Shown in pieces: positions 11,626 to 14,332 of a stretch of 64,000 nucleotides of DNA. Source of the stretch: Terriglobia bacterium (GTDB lineage: Bacteria > Acidobacteriota > Terriglobia > Terriglobales > Acidobacteriaceae); contig JAIQGE010000012.1 of NCBI GenBank assembly GCA_020072815.1, forward strand, positions 124,001 to 188,000, read 5' to 3'. A model generated the notes under the pieces. It did no database searches, was not told where the DNA came from, and saw only the letters and a list, made by a program, of their open reading frames with translations. The translations under genes and the position numbers were made by a program. Positions within the stretch are counted from its first letter, which is position 1; the number at the start of each line of letters is the position of its first letter.

Positions 11626-11773
11626 CGCTGAGCTGGACGGATCAGTTCCGCTGCGCTTCGCGAGCCAACAAACGACGACCGTTACCCATTAACTAAATCG
11701 CCATCAATCATCTGATAAACCCACACCCCACCCTCCCCCTCCCTGCTCCGTTGCGAACAAAGGGACTTATCTC

Positions 11774-11796
11774 GGCAATAATATACTTGCCTGACA
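11774..11796. repeat. Left terminal inverted repeat of the IS1595-family element
   Basis: Inverted partner of 13873-13895 with one mismatch. The outer base pairs are GGC. The 8 bases outside (CTTATCTC) are repeated beyond the right end. Confidence 0.93.
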
Positions 11797-11823
11797 AAAC
11801 GGTTCTATGCTCCACTTGATGCT

Positions 11824-12609
11824 ATGCGAAAGTGCGCATTCTGCCCTTCCACTAAGTTGACCCGCGAGCATATTTTTGGCGATTGGATTAACAGAATCAT
11901 TCCGCCAACTCCTACAACTAACCGGAGAAGAACTTCACCCGATGGCCCAATGAAAGAATGGACAACGTTCGGGGTTAACTACACAGCCAAAGTCGCTTGC
12001 GCTAAATGCAACAACGGATGGATGAGCGCGTTTGAGCACAATGAGGCTAAGCCAACACTCACTGACATGATTCGATACGGAGGAGCTATCTCGCTTCTCC
12101 CGAGGGGCATTGCTTCAATTGCAGCTTTTGGATTCAAAATGGCAGCGATCGCCAACTACACGGGTTATCAGAATCAACCCTATTTCAGCGAAGCAGATCG
12201 TTACGGTTTTGCAAAGACTCTGAAGGTGCCAGACGGCGTTCAAATGTGGCTTTTTGCTCTTAACACTCCCGGCAGGCTAACCGCGAAAGTGAATGGCTAT
12301 TTAGGGCGCTTGCCAGCGGAAGTCATCCAACGTTTCGATATGTACATGGGTACATTCGCTATCGGGTACTTCGGTATCCAAGTGGTTGCTTCGCGATGGA
12401 GCAATCCCCACCTCTCCGCTGTCCTCGGGAGGTTTCCAGGACTCGCGGAGGGAAACCACTGGCGGGGTGCCACTGTCAAACTGTGGCCCAGCGATGGAAC
12501 GCCAGTCCTTTGGCCGCCGCAACTCTATATCGGCAGCAATGACATCGATGAGTTCTCCACACGATGGCGTGAGGTTTCCATGCCCAAGGAATGGGTTTCT
12601 AAGCGTTGA
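11824..12609 (+). CDS. HNH-like zinc-motif protein, passenger of the IS element
   Basis: A 261-residue protein. The N-terminus has the layout of an HNH/McrA-type metal-binding site: C4-x2-C7, then REHIF with H16, then C59-x2-C62 followed by NNGWMS. Many HNH endonucleases carry two zinc knuckles around a central histidine. The remaining ~190 residues have no motif I recognise. The start follows the left inverted repeat by 27 bp, so the gene belongs to the element. It may help transposition, act as a homing-like nuclease or protect the host; all are inference. The final catalytic H/N after the second knuckle is not clear, so activity is uncertain. Confidence 0.7.
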   Translation: MRKCAFCPSTKLTREHIFGDWINRIIPPTPTTNRRRTSPDGPMKEWTTFGVNYTAKVACAKCNNGWMSAFEHNEAKPTLTDMIRYGGAISLLPRGIASIAAFGFKMAAIANYTGYQNQPYFSEADRYGFAKTLKVPDGVQMWLFALNTPGRLTAKVNGYLGRLPAEVIQRFDMYMGTFAIGYFGIQVVASRWSNPHLSAVLGRFPGLAEGNHWRGATVKLWPSDGTPVLWPPQLYIGSNDIDEFSTRWREVSMPKEWVSKR

Positions 12610-12653
12610 CATATTGTGCCTTTCTGTTTTTTGAACCGTGCTAGGATAAAGCA

Positions 12654-12839
12654 ATGAGCAGCACCAAAAGAAATGAGATGCACGAGGGGCCAGAGGCTTA
12701 CGCGAGATTCCGCAACGCAATGAAGCAAATCATTTCCGTTCCTAAATCAGCGATTTTGCCAGAGAAAAACAAGAAATCAAAGCGGGCTAAGACTTCGCCC
12801 GCCTCCCACGCTTCCCGCGACCGGGCATCCAAAACTTAG
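12654..12839 (+). CDS. Small basic protein, IS passenger
   Basis: 61 residues, beginning MSSTKRNEMHEGPEAYARF and continuing RNAMKQIISVPKSAI, with a Lys/Arg/Ser-rich tail. It starts 44 bp after the HNH-like gene and its last four bases overlap the 3' end of the convergent transposase gene. The central F-x2-AM-x3-ISVPK pattern resembles small proteins found across many bacteria, but I cannot name a family. It could be an antitoxin-like or DNA-binding partner of the HNH-like protein. Confidence 0.5.
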   Translation: MSSTKRNEMHEGPEAYARFRNAMKQIISVPKSAILPEKNKKSKRAKTSPASHASRDRASKT

Positions 12840-13846
12840 AACGCCTGACTGCGGCCATCTGCGGTTTTTCCTGTGAGTTCTTGATAGGTCAAACGCTTAC
12901 CCACGATCTGAGACATTGCAAGGGTAAAGCGATCTGAGTCATTCAGCGGGTTGTCTTTCGTCGCCCGATTGTTAAAACGGAATGTTTGCTCATCCGCGTA
13001 ACGATCAAGATGGAACGGCTCGACCGCGACGTAAGTCCCGCGCAAAGTGCGCTTGAACAACGACCAGAAGTTTTCAATCCCGTTTGTGTGAACCTGCCCT
13101 TGCACGTAAGACTCTACATGATTGATTACGTCATGCGCGAATTTGTCAGCTAGCGCGTAGCGGTAAGTTGGAAAATCATCGGTAATGACGTGCGCTCCCG
13201 CTTCGATGTTCCCAAGGATTTTCTCTTGCAACGTGGCACGTTTTACGTTGGGAATGACCATCGCCCGAACCTGTCTCATGTTCCGGTCAAGCATTCCCAT
13301 AACAATAGTTTTTCCCGGTGCGCGGTGATTCTTCTCGCGGTCATTGCCAGCAATGGACAGAATCCGCGCTCTGCGGTCTTTGTGCATCCTGCGCGGGTCA
13401 GGGCCGACAAAGGTTTCATCTGCTTCGACCGGGCCACCCTCAGAGCCGAGTTTCATCAGCGAGTTATTCTTCATTGCCAGCCGAATGCGATGCGCCATGA
13501 ACCATGCCGATTTCTGCGTCACGCCCAGGTCGCGGTGAATCTCGTAAGAGCTGATTCCGTTCTTGCAGTTGACCATGAGCCAGACAGCAACAAGCCACTT
13601 CTCAAGAGGAATCGGAGAATCTTCAAAGATCGTTCCAACCTTGAGTGAGAATTTTTGTTTCTCGTGCTTCTGGTAGCACTTGAAGACCTTGGCATTCGGA
13701 AGCCATTGGACTTCCTCAGAGCCGCACCGTGGGCATTTCACTTTGCCATCGGGCCAGCGAAGCTCTACCATGAAGCGATGGCAGTTTTCGTACTCTGAGA
13801 AGTGGGCGATTGCTTGCTGAAGCGTTTCCGGCTCTCTTGATTTCAT
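12836..13846 (-). CDS. IS1595-family transposase (ISXO2-like DDE domain)
   Basis: 336 residues, intact. The N-terminal zinc ribbon (C38-x2-C41 in KCPRCGS, then C57) is followed by a helix-turn-helix segment near 97-118. The catalytic core has its first acidic residue in VEADETF (D143/E144), a second in VITDDF (D223/D224), and the HTNGIENFW box (E258) at the third position. This order and spacing are those of the ISXO2-like DDE transposase domain. It catalyses cut-and-paste or replicative movement of the element at 11774-13895. The ATG lies 27 bp inside the right inverted repeat. The promoter probably overlaps that end. Nothing is missing, so the element may be active. Confidence 0.95.
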   Translation of the reverse strand: MKSREPETLQQAIAHFSEYENCHRFMVELRWPDGKVKCPRCGSEEVQWLPNAKVFKCYQKHEKQKFSLKVGTIFEDSPIPLEKWLVAVWLMVNCKNGISSYEIHRDLGVTQKSAWFMAHRIRLAMKNNSLMKLGSEGGPVEADETFVGPDPRRMHKDRRARILSIAGNDREKNHRAPGKTIVMGMLDRNMRQVRAMVIPNVKRATLQEKILGNIEAGAHVITDDFPTYRYALADKFAHDVINHVESYVQGQVHTNGIENFWSLFKRTLRGTYVAVEPFHLDRYADEQTFRFNNRATKDNPLNDSDRFTLAMSQIVGKRLTYQELTGKTADGRSQAF

Positions 13847-13872
13847 ACCGAAACTTTAGCAAATTTACCCCC

Positions 13873-13895
13873 TGTCAGTCAAGTATATTATTGCC
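13873..13895. repeat. Right terminal inverted repeat of the IS1595-family element
   Basis: Pairs with 11774-11796. The sequence immediately outside is CTTATCTC (13896-13903), the second half of the target-site duplication. Confidence 0.93.
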
Positions 13896-13903
13896 CTTAT
13901 CTC

Positions 13904-14332
13904 ATTCGACCCAACGGTCACCCAACTGTTAACCAGCAAGTAAATTTACCGTCTAACCTACTGATAATATGTGCTTTACTGTGTTGCTCCTGGCCAAAGA
14001 CCACAGACCAAAAGCCGGCTTATTGTCAAAGGCCGTCTTACATCCCGCCTCGGCGGAATGAGTGGCCTTCTTGTCTTCCATCGGCCCTGATTGAGTGAAG
14101 TATTTTACCTCTTTTTATTCGCTATGTCGAGTGCGAAGAAGTACATGTATCCCGTCGCCTTCGGACCCATGGCTCACGTCGCCAACTAGAATGGGGGCAG
14201 CTTGGAGGACTGAGGTAGTTTGGAGTACTGAAGCATTTTTTTGGAGCACTGAGGTAGCTTGGAGCACCTGAGGCTGTTTCGGTACGAGAACGTGGCACGA
14301 GATGCTGCGCACCGCGAACCCCGAGAACGGTC
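13904..14332. other. Intergenic region between the IS element and the NarL-type gene
   Basis: No gene supported. The only structure seen is the 18-bp tandem repeat at 14202-14276 and a short GC-rich inverted stretch near 14048-14061. Confidence 0.5.
14202..14276. repeat. Four tandem ~18-bp units (TTGGAGNACTGAGGTAGY)
   Basis: Units start at 14202, 14220, 14241 and 14259, with lengths 18, 21, 18 and 18. All begin TTGGAG. The second carries a T-run expansion. A minisatellite just downstream of the response-regulator stop; no spacer diversity, so not CRISPR. Confidence 0.75.

Follow-up and report, generated by a model that had tools for sequence, protein, structure and literature searches.

Members of the IS1595 family of insertion sequences usually code for a single transposase, which bears an N-terminal zinc ribbon in all groups of the family except IS1016 (PMC8101967). 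This single-gene rule is usual rather than strict, and departure from it is what defines the cargo-bearing "transporter IS", a variant known since 2009 (Siguier, Gagnevin & Chandler 2009, Res Microbiol 160:232, as represented by the citing papers PMC3129680 and PMC12888890), in which an IS1595 transposase, GG-ended inverted repeats and an 8-bp duplication are combined with passenger genes unrelated to transposition. A comparable coupling of a fixed transposition module to very diverse cargo, including anti-phage genes, is seen in the Tn7-like transposons with defence cargo, which use an unrelated and much larger multi-protein machinery (PMC8649781).

Our analysis of a 64,000-nucleotide stretch (hereafter the window) of DNA from a Terriglobia bacterium, whose family belongs to the Acidobacteriota, points to an element that is probably an intact cargo-carrying transporter IS of this kind, in which the backbone would consist of the transposase and a small partner that aids or regulates transposition, with the rest of the element given over to exchangeable, host-benefiting cargo. 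In place of the Tn7-like machinery there is a single transposase with one small partner, in a format of about 2.5 kb. The element has the same transposase domains and duplication length as classical IS1595-family insertion sequences but two further genes inside its ends, and one of these, coding for an HNH-like protein, is a passenger gene lying beside the element's own transposase, as is typical of transporter ISs. In the literature searched, the 2009 original aside, we found no description of a conserved small partner, of a fixed slot with a coupled small gene, or of a defence-rich cargo. The conserved partner, the fixed architecture and the defence-rich cargo appear to be new, a provisional judgement since the 2009 description enters this comparison through the papers that cite it.

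The element spans positions 11774–13895 of the window, from a cargo-side terminal inverted repeat (GGCAATAATATACTTGCCTGACA; 11774–11796, forward strand) to a transposase-side repeat (13873–13895, reverse strand). These 23-nt ends are complementary at 22 of 23 positions and are bounded by a perfect 8-bp target-site duplication, CTTATCTC, at 11766–11773 and 13896–13903; both the GG-ended repeats and the 8-bp duplication are features of the IS1595 family. The end pattern matches the 5.29-Mb genome 13 times, as against 0 for a reversed control, which argues that the window ends are not due to chance; 10 of the 13 matches pair up as the two ends of five elements. The transposase (336 aa; 12836–13846, reverse strand) displays both the N-terminal zinc ribbon (PF12760, 4.2e-8) and the catalytic domain (PF12762, DDE_Tnp_IS1595, 8e-37) typical of the family, and is recovered by the NCBIfam IS1595 model NF033547 (1.1e-53). 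Residues D143, D223 and E258 are invariant in the transposase alignment and, together with K265 seven residues further on, are predicted to form its DDE site. Thus, the complete IS1595-family element proposed in an earlier sequence-only reading, with its near-identical ends, perfect CTTATCTC repeats and intact transposase, is fully borne out. The genome holds five more IS1595 transposase genes, bringing the total with the window copy to six.

The joined flanks of the window element have matches at 11 further sites in this genome, and those copies that were aligned run continuously across the junction with the 8 bp present once. This indicates that the element jumped into a dispersed intergenic repeat, duplicating 8 bp in the process, and that the uninterrupted copies represent empty sites. 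Sister strains had earlier been proposed as the place to look for an empty site; none of 8 same-genus genomes has both flanks (a 49-nt piece at most), and it is at paralogous uninterrupted sites within the same genome that the empty state is found. The dispersed repeat itself, split by the element into window positions 11689–11773 and 13904–13965, occurs at 34 further genomic places. Its core, ATTCGACCCAACGGTCACCCAACTGTT, has 35 copies with at most 3 mismatches, 23 of them perfect, against 0 in the reversed control, and an Rfam search of the repeat returned no match. Two of the other IS1595 copies, on contigs C7 and C21, lie at most about 1 kb from a copy of this repeat.

Related elements can be delimited in the same way: from an initial 73, of which L094 and L140 were dropped for non-canonical ends, we retained 71 with canonical ends, 66 showing an 8/8 duplication and 66 a small gene, whereas 0 of 125 composition-matched controls pass the same filter. 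Among the end-pattern matches in viral contigs, 55 of 73 have no detectable partner end. The 71 elements range from 1702 to 5904 bp (median 2525) and, unlike the classical single-gene insertion sequences, nearly always carry a further ORF (at least 90 aa in 68 of them, at least 150 aa in 65). The comparison shows the stretch bounded by the distal inverted repeat and the small gene to be a slot for exchangeable cargo, the relatives keeping the same layout around unrelated genes. Indeed, L158 and L180 have transposases that are 89% identical and different cargo, so cargo is exchanged.

In close relatives from soil Acidobacteria this same slot is filled by many other genes, among them known anti-phage defences. 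Most prominent are DUF3800 proteins, found in 19 elements (12 recognized with Pfam and the others from similarity or a motif) and modelled elsewhere as having an RNase H fold (PMC10910872). Others include RelA/SpoT-like proteins in three elements, matching a PADLOC candidate family; N6/N4 and C5 DNA methyltransferases; Schlafen/AlbA proteins in two; and a type IIG restriction-modification enzyme (L146), an AbiU/AIPR-type protein (L167), a SocA-type antitoxin (L172) and a DUF433-family protein (L097). The L150 element carries a complete PD-Lambda-5 (A plus B), an experimentally selected anti-phage system (PMC9519451). Outside the delimited set, L256 likewise encodes PD-Lambda-5 A plus B, and L059 encodes the B component with a partial neighbour; in all three cases, drawn from three genomes, the small domain is fused in-frame to the C-terminus of PD-Lambda-5 B.

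The conserved small partner found with this diverse cargo is represented in the window by a 61-aa basic protein (12654–12839, forward strand) with the signature EGPEAxxRFxxAMxxxxxVPKS and a Lys-rich tail. Its gene meets that of the transposase tail to tail in a 4-nt stop-codon overlap (TTAG, 12836–12839), and the exact overlap is seen again in roughly half of the 80 convergent relatives. The sequence-only reading had listed both extra genes as cargo; this description holds for the HNH-like gene, while the 61-aa gene is part of the transposon backbone rather than a partner of the HNH-like gene. A version of it accompanies 107 of 125 related transposase ORFs, taken from viral and genome contigs and the genome's own copies: 81 converge on the transposase gene, most of them at a distance of 10–60 nt from its end, and 26 share its strand, most of these following it directly. 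Within the genome all 6 significant homologues lie in or beside the six IS1595 copies (no ends could be located for the C21 copy, and the small gene there is counted as beside its transposase). In searches elsewhere that were blind to the transposase, 26 of 34 and 14 of 19 homologues adjoin one of the IS1595 type, and some have no transposase nearby. Plasmids searched with the small protein gave no match, and with the transposase gave relatives at most about 41% identical.

Comparisons within the family lead in the same direction. The identities of transposase and small protein co-vary (Mantel r 0.34–0.37, reached in 0 of 100 and 0 of 300 shuffles), whereas those of transposase and DUF3800 do not (r 0.08; 58 of 300 shuffles). 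In 40 of 40 close pairs pN is below pS, a mark of purifying selection and hence of a real protein gene. Against this, some transposase pairs that are about 83–85% identical have small proteins only 32–36% identical, implying that the small protein can be exchanged too. Of the roles earlier suggested for it, that of an accessory to transposition probably fits best, given its retention with the transposases, the co-variation and the selection on it. By eye, divergent look-alikes can also be discerned beside the transposases of L100, L172 and L186, which were scored as having no small gene. A perfect 6-bp GCGGGC/GCCCGC hairpin at window positions 12782–12802, towards the 3′ end of that gene, is possibly a terminator between the two convergent genes; the KRAKTSPAS-like tail that it encodes recurs in several relatives.

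The inverted repeats suggest how such an element might be expressed. A promoter-like arrangement of TTGACT, lying inside the inverted repeat, an 18-nt spacer and TAAAGT (13853–13882, reverse strand) reads into the transposase gene. An inward-reading TTGAC is present in 52 of 52 transposase-side ends against 28 of 52 cargo-side ends (Fisher 4e-9, uncorrected for relatedness), and a −10-like box at 15–19 nt spacing follows in 89% of the former and 51% of the latter, as against 11% of random positions. On the cargo side, the window element and many relatives have TTGCC in place of TTGAC. The TTGAC-containing ends can thus be proposed to act as promoters: an inward-facing −35 box would be contributed by each inverted repeat, the first of them serving the transposase gene and its counterpart, in many cases weakened, directing expression of the cargo together with the small gene as a translationally coupled operon. 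In 43 of 59 cases the small-gene start falls within −25 to +40 nt of the cargo stop, and in 18 of 59 the start and stop overlap by 4 or 1 nt. AlphaFold predicts for the small protein one confident helix (residues 13–27) and a disordered basic tail; with this short helix and Lys/Arg-rich tail it might bind DNA or the transposase as a helper or regulator of transposition. The cargo, for its part, would owe its persistence to a tendency to be of use to the host, in many cases through anti-phage or toxin–antitoxin functions.

The coupling to cargo and the fusion to PD-Lambda-5 B count against a purely accessory role and would also fit a function on the cargo side; the small homologues with no transposase nearby count against it as well. 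We regard it as unlikely, if worth serious consideration, that the small protein serves the cargo instead, always accompanying it at the C-terminal side and binding, neutralizing or localizing whichever protein is translated just upstream. Both the start/stop overlaps and the fusions in three genomes are what this idea would lead one to expect, as is a transposase-less element that keeps a DUF3800 gene and the small gene between its inverted repeats; however, different elements carry unrelated cargo, small-protein identities co-vary with those of the transposase and not with those of DUF3800 (r −0.13), and the 26 small genes on the transposase strand mostly follow the transposase gene directly, apart from any cargo operon. 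More doubtful still is the notion that the small protein represses the element's own transposase. The tight association of a small basic protein with the transposase would suit such a role, and convergent genes with overlapping stops favour mutual regulation, but the same-strand layout also exists, so that antisense effects cannot be general, and the AlphaFold prediction has no recognizable DNA-binding fold.

The accessory role in transposition, which we favour, admits a more speculative extension: a large branch of the IS1595 family could be two-component, its transposase joined by a dedicated small basic protein with cargo-coupled translation, which would tie expression of a transposition factor to an intact cargo gene. 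If so, this would explain the near-absence of bare elements, and the members of this branch would be dedicated shuttles for defence-like genes.

The cargo of the window element is a 261-aa protein (11824–12609, forward strand) with the motifs C4-x2-C7, E15-H16 and C59-x2-C62-N63, followed by W66; all the named Cys, Glu, His and Asn residues are invariant in seven homologues. This resembles the C-x2-C … E-H … C-x2-C-N pattern of HNH_5 (PF14279) and other treble-clef HNH nucleases, from which it differs in lacking a significant Pfam match and an evident third catalytic position. The HNH layout noticed earlier is therefore upheld in the conserved Cys4 and the catalytic-like His/Asn and not at the level of profiles. 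Searches with Pfam, NCBIfam and PADLOC gave no match for the protein, the best-scoring of its homologues reaches an HNH profile with E 0.098, a PDB sequence search yielded nothing significant, and the AlphaFold model, built from 2 sequences with one full-length usable relative, has a pLDDT of 31, so "HNH-like" is to be taken as a motif-level reading.

Of 399 genomes from the class, 20, counting that of the window, encode members of this family, with identities of about 22–33%. Among 17 homologous loci examined with wider flanks, a single one is carried by an IS1595 element, whose ends differ from those in the window (L198:4420-7121; duplication GTGCTAAG), so the family has been picked up at least twice; a second (L199) adjoins an IS1595 element but falls outside its ends, and the others have no IS1595 transposase nearby. 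HNH-like homologues thus stand mostly outside IS1595 ends. That the two form a toxin–antitoxin or nuclease–immunity pair, as had been suggested, is highly improbable: the two genes do neighbour each other on one strand, with 44 nt between them, but the 17 homologues have no detected copy of the small gene, and the HNH-like protein matches no toxin–antitoxin or defence model. We likewise reject them as a two-gene unit, since the small gene is found beside dozens of unrelated cargo genes. The notion of defence cargo is plausible for the element family as a whole, even as the window protein itself matches no PADLOC defence model; our guess is that it might be a nuclease-fold effector of an anti-phage or toxin–antitoxin kind.

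If these proposals are right, one of the simplest types of bacterial transposon would be a systematic carrier of defence, methyltransferase and toxin–antitoxin-like genes in soil bacteria, with a conserved and apparently undescribed partner protein. The end consensus and small-protein profile would then offer both a route to defence candidates among uncharacterized cargo (DUF3800, the HNH-like family and others) and a handle on whether a tiny cargo-coupled protein controls transposition.

Several further elements were noticed. The transposase-less IS1595-type element mentioned above (L236:4027-5514), with inverted repeats and near-identical 8-bp duplications (CTTTGTTA/CTTCGTTA), looks like a non-autonomous insertion cassette; its DUF3800 and small genes overlap by a few nt. 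MITE-like elements of 317 bp (L278) and 275 bp (L332) share these inverted repeats and are flanked by perfect 8-bp duplications. On the Methylobacterium oryzae plasmid pMOC1, a 3413-bp IS1595 element (L370:693-4105; perfect duplication AATCGGAA) carries a VapC-family toxin and hypothetical genes. An IS1595 element on a Pseudosulfitobacter pseudonitzschiae plasmid (L368:3369-5237) encodes, just downstream of the transposase, a non-basic 46-aa protein, DRFKEAARELETDDDEARFNERLRKLAKQ, possibly the alphaproteobacterial counterpart of the small partner. A second recurrent type of small ORF (..GQ[FI][VT]TERYADxHPxTTER..) is shared by IS1595 elements of different lineages, in the L060 element and at L198:4818-4941.
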